In this document: piece by piece, positions 21,570 to 30,546 of the stretch
Layout of the letters: each line of letters starts with the position of its first letter
Numbering within the stretch: position 1 is the first letter of the stretch
Assembly: GCA_022361115.1 (NCBI GenBank)
Contig: JAKSBL010000060.1
Coordinates: 1-35,364, forward strand
Direction of reading: 5' to 3'
Source of the DNA: Spirochaetota bacterium
GTDB lineage: Bacteria > Spirochaetota > GWE2-31-10
Length of the DNA: 35,364 bases
Position numbers and translations under genes: made by a program
The notes under the pieces: model-generated
The model's input: the letters and a program-made list of their open reading frames with translations, nothing else
Databases searched by the model: none
What the model was told of the DNA's origin: nothing

Positions 21570-21817
21570 TTTTTTATCCTGGCCCTTAAGTATTACAAAA
21601 ATAATAACAACATTTAGAGCATCTGTCAATTATGAGAAAAAATCTTCTGCACAATAGCAACCACAATCAAATTTTGTATCAAAGTCTGGGTATAATGAAA
21701 ATAATATGAAAATAAATAAGCCTAACTGGTTACAAGAACTAAGATTATCAACCAATTTTTGTCTTATAATCTTCTGTAACTAAAACACTTTAAACGAATA
21801 TAGAAAGGAATAAATTG

Positions 21818-24800
21818 ATGGCAAATAACATAAAAAATTTTACAATTTTTCCAATTGGCAAGGCTGAAAGTTATTTAGCTCAACCTGCACTAGTTGTGGA
21901 AAAAAAATATTGGCCAGCCTTAAAACAACTGGAAAAATTCAGTCACTTATTGGCGTTCTGGTATGTTGAAGAATCTTTAATAGCTTCAGATGAATCAAAT
22001 AGCGGTTGGTTTGCAAAAAAAGGGGGTAGAAGGCCTAATCCTCTAATAATGACAACCTGTCGAATTGTGGATATTGATTTTCAACAAGGAAGAATAACTG
22101 TAAATCGTCTGAATATTCCTCAGTCGGCAATTTTAATTGATATCAAAGCTTATATTCCAGTTAGTGATCGTGTTAAAAAATCACATCAACCGGACCACTC
22201 TGATCAACTATGGTTCAATGATACTCAAGAAAAAGAATGGCAATATCATCATAAGAGTATCAGGAAAAAAGAACAAAATTTAAACAAACTGGGAAAAACT
22301 TTGAAAAAACAAAACAAGACGATTATTCAATTAGATCCTCAGTATGTTCAAGGTTTAACAGGAATTGATCAGTATTCCCATGTGCAAGTGTTATTTTGGT
22401 TTGATCGACTGGATGGCGAGAGATTTCGAAAAATTTTACAGTGTCATCCTCCCTATCATAAACAAACGACAACAGGAGTTTTTGCCTCTCGTTCTCCGGT
22501 ACGACCAAATCCAATTGGGCTTTCTACTATCAAGATTCATCAAACCAATGAACAGGAAGGTTGGTTAGAAGTAGATGATTCTGATTTTTATGAAAATACC
22601 CCTATCCTGGATATACAACCCTATATTCCTGCTTTTGATCGGGTAAGTTCAGTCACTGTTCCCCCCTGGCTATCCCATTGGCCAGCCTGGTATCCCGAAA
22701 GATCTGCAAAAAATGCTGAACCAGATCAGCTTTTCCCAGCAGATGTAGATATGCTATCAGAAATCGTAATCATTACTGATAAATCTCCAATAGCTGTGGA
22801 TAGCAATGAAGAAAAACCTATTGATCAATCTGCCAATTATTCAGAAAAAGATAAAATTGCTATTATTGGTGCCAGCAAACATAATTTAAAAAATATTTCT
22901 CTTAATATTCCGAAAAACCAATTAGTTGTTATTACTGGTGTGAGTGGAAGCGGTAAATCTTCTCTAGCATTTGATACCATTTATGCAGAAGGCCAGCGTG
23001 GCTATTTAGAAAGCCTCACTACCAGTGAGCGACAACTTTTTCATCAACTTGCCCATCCCCAAGTAAAACAGATTAAAGGTTTAATCCCAACAGTGGCAAT
23101 TGAACAAAAAAGCCTAAACCGCTCACCCCGTTCTACTGTTGGCACTATCACAGGCATTTATAACCTTTTTAGAGTCCTGTTTGCAGAAGCAGGTTTAAGA
23201 CATTGCCCCCAATGTGGAAGAGCCGTTAAACCAGTGACCATCTCTGAAACTCTTTTTTTACTTAAAAATCTTCCTGTTCAGACACAATTTAACCTGTATT
23301 ACCAGGAAGAAGATTTAGACTCGCTTCAAGATATATTAATCGGTAAATATACTGTACCAGATAAAAATGATTCAACTTATGAGAAAAAAATTCATGAAGC
23401 AATTAAGCAAGCATTTAACAGTAAAAGAACGGTTTTAAAGATAGAAATACAAGAGGGAAGTATCCACTATCTGTCGCCCCGTCAGCTCTGTGTACATTGT
23501 GATCAATTGTTTTTTGCTCTCTCTCCATCACAATTCAGCTTTAACAGCCCAGATGGTATGTGTTCAGAATGTAATGGATTGGGAGTAAAAATGATTGTAA
23601 ATCCTGATCAAATTATTAGCAGCCCAGAGCTCTCATTATTAGACGGAGCTTCCCGCTGGTGGGGAAAACTAAAAACAAAAAAAAGAAATGCCAACTGGTT
23701 AACCGGAGAAATTTTAGCCCTGGCTGATGATCACAGTGTTGATCTATCTTTACCCTGGAATCAATTACCAGAAGAATTCAAACATCAAGCACTTTACGGC
23801 AATAATGGCAAGGTTCTTCATTATGAATACCATACCGATAAGGGCCGGTCGGGCTTTATTGACCGCCCGGTTTATGGAGCAATTCACAATATCAATCGCT
23901 TACTGGAAGACCCCAAAGGAAAAGCTAATCAACAATTGTATTTACAATTTTTAAGCCAGCAAACCTGTCCAGTTTGTCAAGGTGAAAGATTAGCGCTGGA
24001 ATCCCGATTGGTCACTCTTGGCGGGAAAAGATTGCCTGTATTAACCAAAATGACTATCCAACAAGCATATGACTGGCTCAACACTCTTCCGGAAACCTTA
24101 ACTGTAAGGGAACAAAAAATTGCTTTTGAAGCAATACAGGAAATTACTAAGAAGCTGAATTCCTTAATTCAGGTTGGATTACATTACCTTAATTTGGATA
24201 GGGCAACCAATACCTTATCCGGTGGTGAGGCTCAACGGGTAAGATTATCTTCACAATTAGCAGGCCATTTAAGTGGATTACTCTATATCCTGGATGAGCC
24301 AACTATCGGCCTCCATCCACGTGACCATCAGGCACTGATCAGAACCATGAAGGGATTAAAAAATAATGGCAATAGTGTACTGGTTGTGGAACATGACGAT
24401 CAAGTGATGAAAGAAGCGGATTGGATTATCGATATGGGTCCACAAGCAGGATCATATGGCGGCGAACTTGTTGGACAGGGAACACTTTCAGGAATCTGTC
24501 AAAATACCCAATCCCTAACTGCAGCTTATTTAAATGGAAATAAGCAAGTTGGGTTTACAAATCCAAAAAAACGAACTCCTAAAGGTTACCTGACAATAAA
24601 GGGAGCTAAGCTTCATAATCTAAAAAACATAGAAGTCAGTATTCCTCTGGGGGTCTTCACCTGTTTCACTGGTGTCAGTGGATCGGGAAAAAGTAGTCTG
24701 ATCATCCAAACACTTTACCCGGCACTTGCAGGTAATCCGGATGAAAAAAAAAGAGCTGCCCAATATTATAAAAGGATCAGTGGTTCCGATCAATTGGATA

Positions 24801-25561
24801 AAGTGATTCATATCACACAAGAAGCCATTGGCAGAACCCCCCGTTCCAACCCTGCTACCTATACAGGTGTTTTTGATGAAATCCGTAAAGTTTTTGCCAG
24901 TACACCTGGTGCTAAAGAAAACAAATACCAAGCTGGTCATTTCAGCTTCAACAATAAGGAGGGCTATTGTACTGCCTGTGAAGGAAATGGCAAACAGATT
25001 ATTAATATGCATTTTCTCCCTGATGTATGGATTACCTGTCCTGAGTGTCAGGGTAGCCGATATCGGACAGAAATCCTAGACATTGTTTTTCAAGATAAAA
25101 ATATTGCTCAAGTACTGGATATGGAAATTAGGGAGGCAATAGAGTATTTTACAGATCATCCTAAAATTTGTCATATTCTCAATATGCTCTGTCAGGTAGG
25201 ACTGGATTATATTAAGTTAGGCCAGAGTGGCTTAACCCTATCTGGAGGTGAGGCACAGCGAATAAAGCTGGCAAAAGAGTTGTGTCGTCCTGATTCTGGC
25301 AATACCCTCTATATTCTGGATGAACCAACAACTGGTCTTCATTTTGAAGATATGCAGAAATTGTTAACAATTATTAATCAACTGGTAGAACATGGCAACA
25401 CCGTTGTCATGATTGAACACAATACCAGTATGATCAGAAATGCAGACTGGATTATTGATCTAGGGCCAGAAGGAGGTGATGCAGGGGGGGAAATGATAGC
25501 TGCTGGGACTCCAGAGGATTTAAAAAAAATTGAAAATTCTATAACCGGGCAGTTCTTATAA
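21818..25561 (+). CDS. Fusion: two tandem TrmO/TsaA (UPF0066)-like domains followed by a UvrA-type tandem ABC ATPase
   Basis: Domain 1: GWFAKKGGRRPNPL...LIDIKAYIPVSDRV. Domain 2: YSHVQVLFWFDR...GVFASRSPVRPNPIGLS...TPILDIQPYIPAFDRV. UvrA part: ITGVSGSGKSSLAFDTIYAEGQRGYLESL, CPQC, CVHC..CSEC, NTLSGGEAQRVRL, YILDEPTIGLH, FTGVSGSGKSSL, CTAC..CPEC, LTLSGGEAQRIKL, YILDEPTTGLHFED. ATG 7 nt after GGAA. Confidence 0.93.
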   Translation: MANNIKNFTIFPIGKAESYLAQPALVVEKKYWPALKQLEKFSHLLAFWYVEESLIASDESNSGWFAKKGGRRPNPLIMTTCRIVDIDFQQGRITVNRLNIPQSAILIDIKAYIPVSDRVKKSHQPDHSDQLWFNDTQEKEWQYHHKSIRKKEQNLNKLGKTLKKQNKTIIQLDPQYVQGLTGIDQYSHVQVLFWFDRLDGERFRKILQCHPPYHKQTTTGVFASRSPVRPNPIGLSTIKIHQTNEQEGWLEVDDSDFYENTPILDIQPYIPAFDRVSSVTVPPWLSHWPAWYPERSAKNAEPDQLFPADVDMLSEIVIITDKSPIAVDSNEEKPIDQSANYSEKDKIAIIGASKHNLKNISLNIPKNQLVVITGVSGSGKSSLAFDTIYAEGQRGYLESLTTSERQLFHQLAHPQVKQIKGLIPTVAIEQKSLNRSPRSTVGTITGIYNLFRVLFAEAGLRHCPQCGRAVKPVTISETLFLLKNLPVQTQFNLYYQEEDLDSLQDILIGKYTVPDKNDSTYEKKIHEAIKQAFNSKRTVLKIEIQEGSIHYLSPRQLCVHCDQLFFALSPSQFSFNSPDGMCSECNGLGVKMIVNPDQIISSPELSLLDGASRWWGKLKTKKRNANWLTGEILALADDHSVDLSLPWNQLPEEFKHQALYGNNGKVLHYEYHTDKGRSGFIDRPVYGAIHNINRLLEDPKGKANQQLYLQFLSQQTCPVCQGERLALESRLVTLGGKRLPVLTKMTIQQAYDWLNTLPETLTVREQKIAFEAIQEITKKLNSLIQVGLHYLNLDRATNTLSGGEAQRVRLSSQLAGHLSGLLYILDEPTIGLHPRDHQALIRTMKGLKNNGNSVLVVEHDDQVMKEADWIIDMGPQAGSYGGELVGQGTLSGICQNTQSLTAAYLNGNKQVGFTNPKKRTPKGYLTIKGAKLHNLKNIEVSIPLGVFTCFTGVSGSGKSSLIIQTLYPALAGNPDEKKRAAQYYKRISGSDQLDKVIHITQEAIGRTPRSNPATYTGVFDEIRKVFASTPGAKENKYQAGHFSFNNKEGYCTACEGNGKQIINMHFLPDVWITCPECQGSRYRTEILDIVFQDKNIAQVLDMEIREAIEYFTDHPKICHILNMLCQVGLDYIKLGQSGLTLSGGEAQRIKLAKELCRPDSGNTLYILDEPTTGLHFEDMQKLLTIINQLVEHGNTVVMIEHNTSMIRNADWIIDLGPEGGDAGGEMIAAGTPEDLKKIENSITGQFL

Positions 25562-25616: not shown

Positions 25617-25662
25617 AAAAAAATGACACATTAAATACCCACTATTCTTTGTGTCATTTTTT
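25617..25662. terminator. Bidirectional rho-independent terminator between convergent genes
   Basis: AAATGACACA (25621-25630) / TGTGTCATTT (25650-25659) with flanking A- and T-runs. Confidence 0.8.
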
Positions 25663-25678: not shown

Positions 25679-26824
25679 TTAAAAATCAGCTTCTTCCAAA
25701 GCAGGAAGAGTATCCTCAATAGTGATATATGGATAGAGGACTACCAATTTACCTTTTTTTCCCTTTTCTTCATAGTCGATTTCCACAATACAAATCATAT
25801 CTTTAGGAGGAATTATCTGTAAAATCTTTTCCAGAGAAACTGCTTTTTGTACCAGATCTGGTTCAATATGCCCAACAAATTCCCAGGCTTTTTTGCAGGA
25901 AATCTCAAAAATATCCTTATTGGTAAAACTATTATCTTGTTGGTAAACCAGTAAAAAGTAAAAATCCTGTACTCTTAAAGGTTGACAAAATTTATTTATC
26001 TGGTCTATCTCTTTTTGAGTCAATTTATAATCTGCGCTCTCTAAGTTGACAAAATTACCAATCTTTACCTTACTTTTTCCTTGATAAAATTTGTATTGAT
26101 CCACTTTAAAAGATTTTGCTTGCTTCCAAAATTCTTCATAAGTTAATTGATCAACACTTTTAATCCTGGCTTTTAATGGATTTTTACTATTAAAACTCAC
26201 ATTGTTAATCAATCTGCTGTGTATTTTGCAAAGATTTGTTATCTGCCTTAGGGAAAACTTATCTGGCCGCATAAAATCATAGAGTTTGTAATTCAAATCA
26301 TCCTGATCATCTTTTAAAATATTGCCAGTAGACTTATATGGATAAAGAGCACTTTCCAGATCTTTTAAACCAATCACTGAAGTAGTATAAAAAACAAAAT
26401 TTTCATCACGAACTCCTACTTTACCTCTGGCAATTTCTGAACTAGAAATAAATAAGCTAACCTCGTCATCAATGTGATTTCCAAAATAGATAACACTTCC
26501 TTCTTTAATCTGGAAAAGTTCTTGGGAAGTTACTTTTTTTTGAGAAATCACCACTTCTCCCTGGACAATATCCAGTAACTGTTCTTTTACCCCAGGATAG
26601 GTATAATTTTCTTGATTTACATCTAAAGAGGCTACACGAAAACCAAAATTTTGGTCAACAACCACCAGTTCACCTCGGGCAACAGCCTGATTGTTCCAAT
26701 AAAGAACTTGCGGACGACCGGCAAGAGCAGTGGTTAAAATCAAATCTCCAGCTTTTAAATGAGCCAGTTCAGATAAAGAAAAGTAATTATTTCCTAAAAC
26801 AATTTTTAAAATATGTTCCATCAT
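25679..26824 (-). CDS. Flagellar-switch-like protein with permuted order: two SpoA (FliN/FliM C-terminal) domains then a FliM-like core
   Basis: SpoA1 IVLGNNYFSLSELAHLKAGDLILTTALAGRPQVLYWNNQAVARGELVVVDQNFGFRV; SpoA2 VQGEVVISQKKVTSQELFQIKEGSVIYFGNHIDDEVSLFISSSEIARGKVGVRDENFVF; FliM-like LYDFMRPDKFSLRQITNLCKIHSRLINNVS...SVDQLTYEEFWK...EKILQIIPPKDMICIVEI...LYPYITIE. Confidence 0.75.
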   Translation of the reverse strand: MMEHILKIVLGNNYFSLSELAHLKAGDLILTTALAGRPQVLYWNNQAVARGELVVVDQNFGFRVASLDVNQENYTYPGVKEQLLDIVQGEVVISQKKVTSQELFQIKEGSVIYFGNHIDDEVSLFISSSEIARGKVGVRDENFVFYTTSVIGLKDLESALYPYKSTGNILKDDQDDLNYKLYDFMRPDKFSLRQITNLCKIHSRLINNVSFNSKNPLKARIKSVDQLTYEEFWKQAKSFKVDQYKFYQGKSKVKIGNFVNLESADYKLTQKEIDQINKFCQPLRVQDFYFLLVYQQDNSFTNKDIFEISCKKAWEFVGHIEPDLVQKAVSLEKILQIIPPKDMICIVEIDYEEKGKKGKLVVLYPYITIEDTLPALEEADF

Positions 26825-26836
26825 TTAGCTCCTTAC

Positions 26837-27388
26837 TTAATGAAGTAAATCATCAGAATTAGGTTTTATTATATCTCTAGCTAGAAAATATTTATTATAT
26901 TCAGAGAAATTAAAATTTCTCATTAAGTCACTATCTTTTAATAATTCACTGTTAACCTGCTGCTGGTTACTTTCCAATATTTTTATCAATAAATCTTTTG
27001 CAGCTCCTTTTTTAATATAGAATTCCTGTCTGATTCGTATAATAGCAGATGATTGTTTTAACTCTTCCAGCTGGTGATCAGTAAGTGATAATATTTCAAC
27101 CAGCTGTTGAAGGCTGATCAATCCTAATTCTTTTAGTAAAATGTTTTGCTCTCGTTGTACTTTTAAACCAGCGATCCTTTTATTCAATCTTACAGTTAGT
27201 TCCTGAGCAACAGGATTTTCTAAATGAGTTTTTGCTATTAATTGAGAATACTTTTTATGCTGTTCTAATTGATCCTGACAAAAATTACAATTTTTAAGAT
27301 GTTCTAAAAAATCTTTTTCTTTATTGCTAGATAATTGTTCATCAATATAATCAAAAAAATACTTCTCATATTCTAAACACTTATTCAT
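26837..27388 (-). CDS. zf-HC2-type soluble anti-sigma factor
   Basis: FLEHLKNCNFCQDQLEQH (H-x3-C-x2-C) near the N-terminus; start overlaps the ECF sigma stop; no TM segment seen. Confidence 0.7.
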   Translation of the reverse strand: MNKCLEYEKYFFDYIDEQLSSNKEKDFLEHLKNCNFCQDQLEQHKKYSQLIAKTHLENPVAQELTVRLNKRIAGLKVQREQNILLKELGLISLQQLVEILSLTDHQLEELKQSSAIIRIRQEFYIKKGAAKDLLIKILESNQQQVNSELLKDSDLMRNFNFSEYNKYFLARDIIKPNSDDLLH

Positions 27389-27920
27389 ATTGACTCCTTA
27401 AAGCAGAATAAACTCTTTCTCTTGCTCGATGAATAATGGTTTTTACCGTTCCTAAAGGTTTATTTAGTATTTCTGCAATACTTTGATAATCATACCCTTC
27501 CATATCTTTAAGAAAAAGAGCAGTTTTCTTGATTTCTGGCATGTTTTCTAATAACTGGTAGTAATCCCGGTATATTTCCTGTTTATCTAATTGATCCTGG
27601 ATATTTCTTTCATCTCTGATTTGATCGACTGGATATTCTTCATCTGACAAAGTCTCTGGTTTCATTTTTCTTAAATAATCAATACAACGACTCCTGGTGA
27701 TAGTAAATAAATAAGTACTAAACTTGGCCAGATGAATATAGGTTTTCCGATTTCTGTAAAGGGATAGAAATACTTCCTGAAAAATATCTTCTGTTTCCAT
27801 AGAATTTCCAATAAGGGTATATATAAAACGGTATACCGACTGCTGGTATTTCTCATATAACAGATTAAAAGCTTCGGTATCACCCTTTTTTATTAATATC
27901 ATCAGTTCTTGATCAGTCAT
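27381..27920 (-). CDS. ECF-family RNA polymerase sigma factor
   Basis: DTEAFNLLYEKYQQSVYRFIYTLIGN...EDIFQEVFLSLYRN, region 4 YDYQSIAEILNKPLGTVKTIIHRARERVYSAL; start at MTDQELM. Confidence 0.92.
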   Translation of the reverse strand: MTDQELMILIKKGDTEAFNLLYEKYQQSVYRFIYTLIGNSMETEDIFQEVFLSLYRNRKTYIHLAKFSTYLFTITRSRCIDYLRKMKPETLSDEEYPVDQIRDERNIQDQLDKQEIYRDYYQLLENMPEIKKTALFLKDMEGYDYQSIAEILNKPLGTVKTIIHRARERVYSALRSQYE

Positions 27921-27957: not shown

Positions 27958-27986
27958 TTAAACGGAGAAGAGTGCAAAAGGTTTCA
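27958..27986 (-). promoter_or_regulatory. Putative ECF-type autoregulatory promoter (TGAAACC-15-CGTTTAA)
   Basis: On the minus strand TGAAACCTTTTGCACTCTTCTCCGTTTAA, 37 nt before the sigma ATG. A sigma70-like TTGCAC-18-TATAAA overlaps it. Confidence 0.45.
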
Positions 27987-28059: not shown

Positions 28060-28689
28060 CTAACTTAGTTTTTCTGCATACTGTATCCGTCCTTTTTCTG
28101 ACAGAACGCCGTCAAACATAACAATTAATACAGAATCAAATAACTCAGAGACAGAAATAGGTAGTTCTTCAATGATATTCGTGGTCAATACATTTTTAAT
28201 GGCTTCAAAATAAAAACGAACTACCAGGCTGGTATTAAAAACTGGTTTAAAAACACCTTCCTTGATTCCAGCTTCAACCAGACCTTCACATTGTTTTAGC
28301 AGTTCATCAGACTCAAAAGTCTTGATTTGCTCCCAGAGAAAAGGAAACTTACTTTTTAAATCCTTAATCAATGGTTTAGAAAAAAAGGACATCTTTATTG
28401 CAGCAGTTTTTAGGATCAGTTTCACTTTATCAATTAAATCATAATCTGAATTCTGGATAATTTGCTCAATTTCTTTTAAGATTTCGTCTTTACGTTTTAC
28501 AAAAACAGCTTGTAAGATCATTTCTTTTTTTGGAAAATATTTATAAAGGGTTTTTTTACTAATGGCTAAACGCTCAGCTATCTCATCTGTAGTAATTTTT
28601 GTATAACCGTATTGAAAAAATAATTCTGCAGCCAGCTTCAGTATCCGGGCTTCCACAACCGGGTCATGACTTTCATTAGGAATATCCAT
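28060..28689 (-). CDS. TetR-family transcriptional regulator
   Basis: ILKLAAELFFQYGYTKITTDEIAERLAISKKTLYKYFPKKEMIL. Confidence 0.95.
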   Translation of the reverse strand: MDIPNESHDPVVEARILKLAAELFFQYGYTKITTDEIAERLAISKKTLYKYFPKKEMILQAVFVKRKDEILKEIEQIIQNSDYDLIDKVKLILKTAAIKMSFFSKPLIKDLKSKFPFLWEQIKTFESDELLKQCEGLVEAGIKEGVFKPVFNTSLVVRFYFEAIKNVLTTNIIEELPISVSELFDSVLIVMFDGVLSEKGRIQYAEKLS

Positions 28690-28878: not shown

Positions 28879-30546
28879 ATGAAACATCCAGAAAATATCC
28901 AGATTGAAATACATAACCAAAAACCAATAGAAATTCCTTCAGGAACCCGGGTTTATCAGTTGATAAAACATCATCCTTCTAAAAACTACCCCTATGTTGC
29001 TGCGATGATCAATAACAATGTGTGTTCCTTAAATACTGTCTTAACCATTAATGCAAAAGTAAAATTTCTCACTATCGAATCCATGACAGGTATGGAAGTC
29101 TATCGCCGAAGTTTAGCCATACTTTTATCTAAAGCAATTCATGTCCTTTTTCCTAAAGCGAAATTGATCATTAGCCACTCTATTGCTCATGGTTTTTATT
29201 ATGATCTGGAAAATATTGATCTTCCTATTGATAAAAATATCTTAGAAAAAATCAAAAATCAAATGCTTACCTTTATCAATGAGGATATTCCTATTTTTGA
29301 AATTGAGTTAGGTTATGAAGAAGCTCTAAACTGGTTAGATTCCCAAAAGCAAAAGGATGAATATAATTTATTAAAAGCAAAAAATCTGGAAAAAGTTTCA
29401 TTCTATCAAATCAATCATTACCAAGAAATGGCTTTTGGCACAGTTGTTCCCAGAACAGGAGTATTAAAAGCATTTGACTTATCTATCTATCATCCAGGTT
29501 TTATCTTAAGATTTCCCAGCCCTGAAAATCCTGATAAAATTGCTACGTATCAGGACTTTCATAACCTTTTTCAAACCTATCGAGAAAGAAAAAACTGGGG
29601 CCGTATTCTCGCTATCCATAATGTTGGGGCTTTAAATGATCAGATTACCAATAAATCTATTGATGATATTGTTCTGATAGTAGAAGCCTTACAGGAAAAA
29701 AAACTAGCTGAAATTTCCGATCAAATCAATCAGCAAAAAGAACAGTTAAAACTGGTCCTCATTGCAGGCCCTTCCAGTTCAGGTAAAACCACATTTGCCA
29801 AAAGGCTAAGTGTGCAGTTCAGAGTCATTGGCCTCAATCCTATCAATCTATCTTTAGATAATTATTTTATTGACCGGGAAAAAACGCCTCGAGATGCGGA
29901 AGGTAATTATGATTTTGAATCTTTAGGTGCCTTGGATATTGAACTATTTAATCAGCAGTTAGTAGAATTGTTTTCTGGCCAGGAGGTGAAACTGCCTAGT
30001 TTTAATTTTAAAACCGGAAAAAGAGTCTATAAAGGCAATACCTTAAAGATGGATAAAGGACATATTCTGATTATTGAAGGGATTCATGGGCTTAATGAAA
30101 AACTAACCTATAAAGTTCCCTTAGAAAATAAGTTTAAAATTTTTGTTTCAGCCCTTTCCCAGATCAAACTCAATTCTAAAAACCGTATTTCCACAACTGA
30201 CACTCGGTTATTGCGTCGAATGATCAGAGACAGCCGGTTCAGAGGATTTACCGCTTTGCAAACTCTTCAACTCTGGCCTAAAGTAATAGCAGGTGAGAAG
30301 AAAAATATCACCCCTTTTCAAGCACAAACCGATGCTATCTTTAACTCAGCTTTAGATTATGAATTTGGGGTGATCAAGCAATTTGCTTTGCCTTTATTGA
30401 AAGAAATTAAACCTTATCATCAGCAATACTATAAAGCAGTACATCTTATCAGTTTTTTAGAATATTTTAAACCGATTGATGATGCAATTGTACCTTCAAA
30501 TTCCATTCTTCGAGAATTTATTGGTAATTCCCGGTTTCATTATTAA
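28879..30546 (+). CDS. TGS/ThrRS-like N-terminus fused to uridine-kinase-like P-loop kinase (nucleoside kinase family)
   Basis: TGS-like N-terminus (IQIEIHNQKPIEIPSGTRVYQLI), ThrRS-like AKLIISHSIAHGFYYDL, kinase IAGPSSSGKTTFAKRLSVQF, LDNYFIDREKTPRD, ILIIEGIHGLN, TDTRLLRRMIRDSRFRG. Confidence 0.87.
   Translation: MKHPENIQIEIHNQKPIEIPSGTRVYQLIKHHPSKNYPYVAAMINNNVCSLNTVLTINAKVKFLTIESMTGMEVYRRSLAILLSKAIHVLFPKAKLIISHSIAHGFYYDLENIDLPIDKNILEKIKNQMLTFINEDIPIFEIELGYEEALNWLDSQKQKDEYNLLKAKNLEKVSFYQINHYQEMAFGTVVPRTGVLKAFDLSIYHPGFILRFPSPENPDKIATYQDFHNLFQTYRERKNWGRILAIHNVGALNDQITNKSIDDIVLIVEALQEKKLAEISDQINQQKEQLKLVLIAGPSSSGKTTFAKRLSVQFRVIGLNPINLSLDNYFIDREKTPRDAEGNYDFESLGALDIELFNQQLVELFSGQEVKLPSFNFKTGKRVYKGNTLKMDKGHILIIEGIHGLNEKLTYKVPLENKFKIFVSALSQIKLNSKNRISTTDTRLLRRMIRDSRFRGFTALQTLQLWPKVIAGEKKNITPFQAQTDAIFNSALDYEFGVIKQFALPLLKEIKPYHQQYYKAVHLISFLEYFKPIDDAIVPSNSILREFIGNSRFHY

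Follow-up and report, generated by a model that had tools for sequence, protein, structure and literature searches.

Our analysis of a 35,364-nt contig of a Spirochaetota bacterium (the window) suggests that a protein assembled from flagellar C-ring domains is, on a cautious balance, a regulatory protein that works with the transcription regulator sharing its operon and acts as that regulator's signal input. We name the family to which it belongs SSF, after its order of two SpoA domains and a FliM middle domain (SpoA-SpoA-FliM_M). The partner would be a CRP/FNR-type regulator in eight genomes and an extracytoplasmic function (ECF) sigma/anti-sigma pair in the window; a part of the motor seems, from these gene arrangements, to have been recruited into a gene switch.

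The window operon and its three proteins

The window belongs to a 5.3-Mb draft genome (G000; 85.8% complete, 5.9% contamination), and the following features, all on its minus strand, are discussed below.

28060..28689, minus strand: TetR-family regulator gene, upstream of the sigma gene (TetR_N, E 1.4e-14)
27958..27986, minus strand: ECF-type promoter TGAAAC-N16-CGTTTAA, 37 nt upstream of the sigma start (sequence, pattern search)
27381..27920, minus strand: ECF sigma factor, 179 aa, regions 2 and 4.2 (Pfam)
26837..27388, minus strand: candidate soluble Hx3Cx2C anti-sigma factor, 183 aa (sub-cut-off zf-HC2 and TIGR03988 matches, motif)
25679..26824, minus strand: SSF, FliN-type SpoA1, FliN-type SpoA2 and FliM middle domain, 381 aa (Pfam, AlphaFold2, Foldseek)
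about 25622..25661, minus strand: terminator-like hairpin 3' of SSF, 13-bp outer stem, -16.3 kcal/mol, z -4.46

The first-pass annotation had described a three-gene operon here, and its coordinates, domain types, 8-nt overlap of the sigma and anti-sigma reading frames and 12-nt gap between the anti-sigma and SSF genes are all confirmed. AAGGAG ribosome-binding sites precede the anti-sigma and SSF genes. The TetR gene is probably outside the operon, with the ECF-type promoter lying in the 139-nt gap between them. The sigma factor consists of regions 2 (Sigma70_r2, PF04542, E 5.8e-18, residues 21-85) and 4 (r4_2, PF08281, E 4.1e-14, residues 119-169) only, in about 180 aa, and a TGAAAC / CGT-type promoter precedes its own operon, both as in ECF factors. 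This promoter resembles the known ECF consensus, and was the single match in the window against 0.15 expected by shuffling (≤3 mismatches). A slightly looser form matched at one further place in the 5.3-Mb genome, ahead of a gene for an MFS transporter. Since the two patterns together returned the window operon and this one additional site, and a reversed control pattern also matched once, we claim no ECF regulon.

The 183-aa product of the overlapping gene is a candidate class I zinc anti-sigma factor of this sigma. Its matches to zf-HC2 (E 0.0054) and to the RsrA-like TIGR03988 (E 3.6e-7) both fall below the curated cut-offs; its N-terminal domain carries the class I (zinc) motif Hx3Cx2C as H30/C34/C37. 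The earlier description of a zf-HC2 protein lacking a transmembrane helix holds, with a highest 19-residue hydropathy of 1.28. Pfam and NCBIfam recognised no domain in the C-terminal half (about 100 aa), structure prediction gave an unusable model (pLDDT 40.7), and the 60 relatives searched yielded local matches to the zinc domain and no full-length relative.

In SSF itself, Pfam detects two FliMN_C (SpoA) domains (E 6.4e-23) followed by a FliM middle domain (E 5.7e-13). An AlphaFold2 model built on an eight-sequence alignment (pLDDT 73.6) matched FliM(SpoA)::FliN (4yxb, E 7.6e-11) and the FliM middle domain (4gc8, E 5e-8) in Foldseek, and a profile search of PDB sequences agreed. For both SpoA domains the FliY/FliN profile outscored FliM-C in all eight SSFs tested, some scores being low, which places both with the FliN type. 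The first-pass annotation had called the protein a permuted switch-like protein; the SpoA-SpoA-FliM_M order is confirmed, but the FliN type of the two SpoA domains makes 'permuted FliM' the wrong name for it. Circular permutation of FliM is rejected on these grounds and, by its profile scores, SSF is FliN-FliN-FliM_M. The window SSF also scores well below the equivalog cut-offs of fliM (TIGR01397, 69.5 against 219.6 bits) and fliN (TIGR02480, 69.2 against 84.05 bits), and its domain order differs from that of canonical FliM (N-peptide, FliM middle domain, C-terminal SpoA). Canonical FliM and FliY genes are present separately from SSF in the window genome (contig C100) and its relatives. FliM contacts FliG through an FGGxG motif; GGxG occurs in 32 of 35 canonical FliM sequences and in none of the nine SSFs, and with this FliG-binding motif gone, SSF appears unlikely to be an ordinary rotor subunit.

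Other genes in the window include, judged by eye from translations, a gene for a CheY-like receiver with a CheX-like gene behind it (1743-2633, some 24 kb away from the sigma operon) and a 1248-aa open reading frame (21815-25561) in which YaeB/TsaA-like N-terminal repeats are apparently joined to a full UvrA-like ABC protein. A 555-aa protein (28879-30546) combines a ThrRS-like N-terminal part with a uridine-kinase/PRK domain.

Distribution of SSF and its linkage to regulator genes

SSF was found in nine Spirochaetota genomes, namely seven of 393 Spirochaetota (profile searches) and two from a sample of one order: the window genome, G001, G004, G018, G162, G332, G379, G393 and G440 (locus L039). 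A contig scan of genomes confined it to Spirochaetota among the matches listed; matches in G058 and G040 were rejected as canonical FliM/FliY loci. A plasmid search found no SSF, and neither did the viral contigs, in which FliM, FliG and FliN genes are present. Four virus-assigned IMG/VR contigs of 33-329 kb (L205, L206, L207, L208) encode FliM, several of them also FliG and FliN; some FliM-bearing contigs have phage-type neighbours (a PmgG-like head protein, homing endonucleases), and in Microcystis phage MaAM05 a fliM gene is annotated.

The SSF middle domains form one clade (support 98/97), and on this tree SSF is a real family of single origin. The window SSF splits from the eight CRP-linked SSFs (support 96/92) on long branches and, given the tree program's warning about such joins, only the single origin is read with confidence. 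The topology is consistent with either an exchange of regulator partners or two old sister lineages; because the window SSF stands apart from the other eight on long branches, a recent partner exchange in its lineage is not proven.

Conservation of the sigma/anti-sigma/SSF trio, whose absence the first-pass annotation had named as one of the outcomes that would count against it, does not hold: among the nine genomes, a sigma/anti-sigma pair adjoins SSF in the window genome only. The broader tie that it proposed between the switch-like protein and a regulator did stand, with a different partner. A CRP/FNR-type regulator gene lies directly downstream of SSF in all eight other genomes, a position in which the window SSF has none. 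The gap is about -26 to +3 nt where the start is clear (in G332 it is ambiguous, and in G018 the scanned stretch has no ATG, GTG or TTG). A CRP-profile search of seven genomes, six with SSF and CRP plus the window genome, returned one strong subfamily member in each of the six (E <= 3.4e-47), always beside SSF, with the next best match at 7.8e-17; the window genome had no member at E <= 1e-6. No flagellar gene was seen adjoining SSF in the loci read. Gene order thus supports a genetic tie between SSF and transcription control, in which the constant theme is SSF together with a probably self-regulated transcription factor of differing class. The possibility that SSF is an accessory of a flagellar or other C-ring/export machine, with the regulator genes as incidental neighbours, draws on the C-ring origin of all its domains, but we consider it improbable given that SSF is linked to one CRP subfamily in 8/8 genomes of divergent families, that no flagellar gene adjoins it in the loci read and that the FliG-binding motif is lost.

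The CRP partners carry a recognition-helix motif, TRETVN(K/R), resembling that of E. coli CRP, which reads GTGA. When the 200 nt before SSF were searched for GTGA-N6-8-TCAC, five of the eight CRP-type operons (G162, G379, G332, L039/G440 and G393) had GTGA-N6/7-TCAC, at -86 to -139 nt and with a shuffle probability of about 0.005-0.009 per region. This palindrome is the predicted site expected for the partner's recognition helix. The corresponding regions of G001 and G004 hold other perfect 7-bp palindromes, and that of G018 an imperfect one. With a CRP-type site or an ECF-type promoter upstream, both operon versions look autoregulated by their own encoded regulator. The cAMP ligands of M. tuberculosis CRP include a glutamate and an arginine; in alignment with that protein both are replaced in the CRP partners, whose input is therefore not expected to be cAMP.

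One genome, G162, has several exact TGTGA-N6/7-TCACA sites. Apart from the site of the SSF operon, those inspected lie near genes of LacI type, for GH4-like enzymes, of the radical-SAM kind and like recJ/hemerythrin, all identified by eye from translations and not by profiles; a flagellar regulon was not recovered, no obvious flagellar gene or operon following the other sites inspected. On contig C4 of this genome an identical palindrome, TGTGATATATGTCACA, occurs three times (169328, 172504 and 177098), 3-5 kb apart, the first beside a LacI-like gene.

The window genome encodes a second C-ring-like module:

L134, 7886-11063 (contig C629 of the window genome): two small FliN-like genes, a fusion of FliM with the FliG middle domain (FliM::FliG) and an AraC-family gene

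The fusion on C629 has 597 aa, and the first small FliN-like gene has no Pfam match. The fusion was near full length in nine of 393 genomes in profile searches, with two more at L040 and L046. At nine of 11 distinct fusion loci (L194 and L076 are the same locus, counted once) there is an AraC-like gene on the same strand at a distance of up to about 2 kb; the two loci with no AraC-like gene nearby are both close to a contig end. By its gene content this module fits the theme of a C-ring part with a regulator, and the existence of two such C-ring-derived modules with linked regulator genes is unlikely to be a coincidence. The fusion could equally be an alternative switch complex, with the AraC protein controlling its expression. 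SSF might be a fusion of the FliN-FliN-FliM genes of this module: the FliM middle domain of all nine SSFs scores higher against the module's profile, but that profile is also the more diverse one, and the tree does not join the two.

SSF as a proposed signal input and the alternatives

We infer from sequence that SSF and its linked regulator influence one another, in one direction or the other. As the signal input, SSF could use its SpoA pair to dock at the flagellar export base, on FliH/FliN, or else oligomerise with free C-ring subunits, and its docked or free state would hold or release the regulator. The motor or export-apparatus state named by the first-pass annotation would be a further candidate for what SSF reads. 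In the window, SSF would bind the C-terminal half of the anti-sigma factor, and autoregulation would amplify the response. We favour SSF as input over SSF as output, mainly because each genome has one dedicated regulator and the normal rotor contact is apparently lost. Counting against the input reading, the ECF/anti-sigma version comes from one draft genome alone, the anti-sigma C-terminal half has no recognisable domain, the window SSF splits from the CRP-linked eight in the tree, and the other G162 sites inspected precede no obvious flagellar gene. A regulator that merely controls SSF expression would also predict the operon linkage just as well.

This last possibility leads to the strongest alternative, which we rate clearly below the input reading: the ECF or CRP-type regulator would sense a stress or a redox/metabolic signal and turn on SSF, which would then alter the flagellar motor or export base, for instance by sequestering FliH, FliN or FliM. 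That the SSF operon is preceded by the regulator's site or promoter would be consistent with this arrangement, as would the binding of FliH by FliM/FliN SpoA pairs (4yxc, a Foldseek match of SSF) and the frequent sensing of intracellular redox by soluble zinc-type anti-sigma factors (PMC7406223). The unbroken one-to-one pairing, with one dedicated regulator copy per genome, is tighter than is usual for a target gene, although it does not exclude an output. By contrast, a SpoIIAA/SpoIIAB/sigmaF-type partner switch with SSF as a phosphorylation-controlled anti-anti-sigma factor, one form that the partner-switching module of the first-pass annotation could take, has the sigma/anti-sigma/third-protein layout in its favour but is refuted at the domain level and very improbable, as none of the three proteins has a Pfam match to STAS, HATPase_c or PP2C and the anti-sigma is zinc-type rather than kinase-type; an unrelated anti-anti-sigma action of SSF would be compatible with these data.

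Returning to SSF as an input, a wider and more tentative proposal is that retired C-ring parts have given Spirochaetota a class of regulators that plug into unrelated classes of transcription factor (CRP/FNR, ECF sigma/anti-sigma and, through the FliN-FliM::FliG module, AraC) and report the state of the motor or export base, or free C-ring subunits, to gene expression. If true, C-ring components would be wired directly to transcription, bypassing a sensor kinase or an exported anti-sigma, and at the regulator end a CRP-type factor could be exchanged for an ECF-type one. With the input constant and its two read-outs unrelated, the function of SSF would be open to direct testing.

Comparison with known systems

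SSF shares the middle-domain fold of flagellar FliM (4gc8), but has two N-terminal FliN-type SpoA domains with nothing before them, no C-terminal SpoA and no GGxG FliG-binding motif. The best structural match of its N-terminal half is the FliM(SpoA)::FliN heterodimer (4yxb) and the SpoA pairs of SctQ/YscQ; unlike these, both SSF SpoA domains are FliN-type and the FliM middle domain comes after rather than before them. The window operon, in turn, resembles soluble ECF class I systems such as ChrR and RsrA (PMC7406223), with a sigma gene overlapping that of an Hx3Cx2C anti-sigma and an ECF-type promoter upstream, and differs from them in its third, C-ring-derived gene. We found no report, in the open-access papers covered, of a C-ring-derived partner in a soluble ECF anti-sigma operon.

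Two precedents couple basal-body state to transcription and, as far as the cited portions of the sources extend, neither uses a C-ring-derived regulator (PMC7064773, PMC4526659). In the FlgSR/FlrBC/FleSR checkpoint of the polar flagellates C. jejuni, V. cholerae and P. aeruginosa, a transcription regulator responds to basal-body parts (FliF, FliG and the export core), a likeness to the system proposed here. The reader there is a histidine kinase acting on the normal motor, and the cited portion of the source describes no C-ring-derived protein that, like SSF, shares an operon with the regulator and is dedicated to it; FliM and FliN are, in the same account, not required for the V. cholerae checkpoint (PMC7064773). 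The coupling of FlgM to the flagellar sigma factor is alike in that the state of the export apparatus controls a sigma through its anti-sigma and, according to the cited part of the source, hook export depends on the C-ring and SwrB, with FlgM, so that basal-body state feeds transcription (PMC4526659). FlgM is itself exported, whereas the window anti-sigma is of the zinc type and its sigma is an ECF factor.
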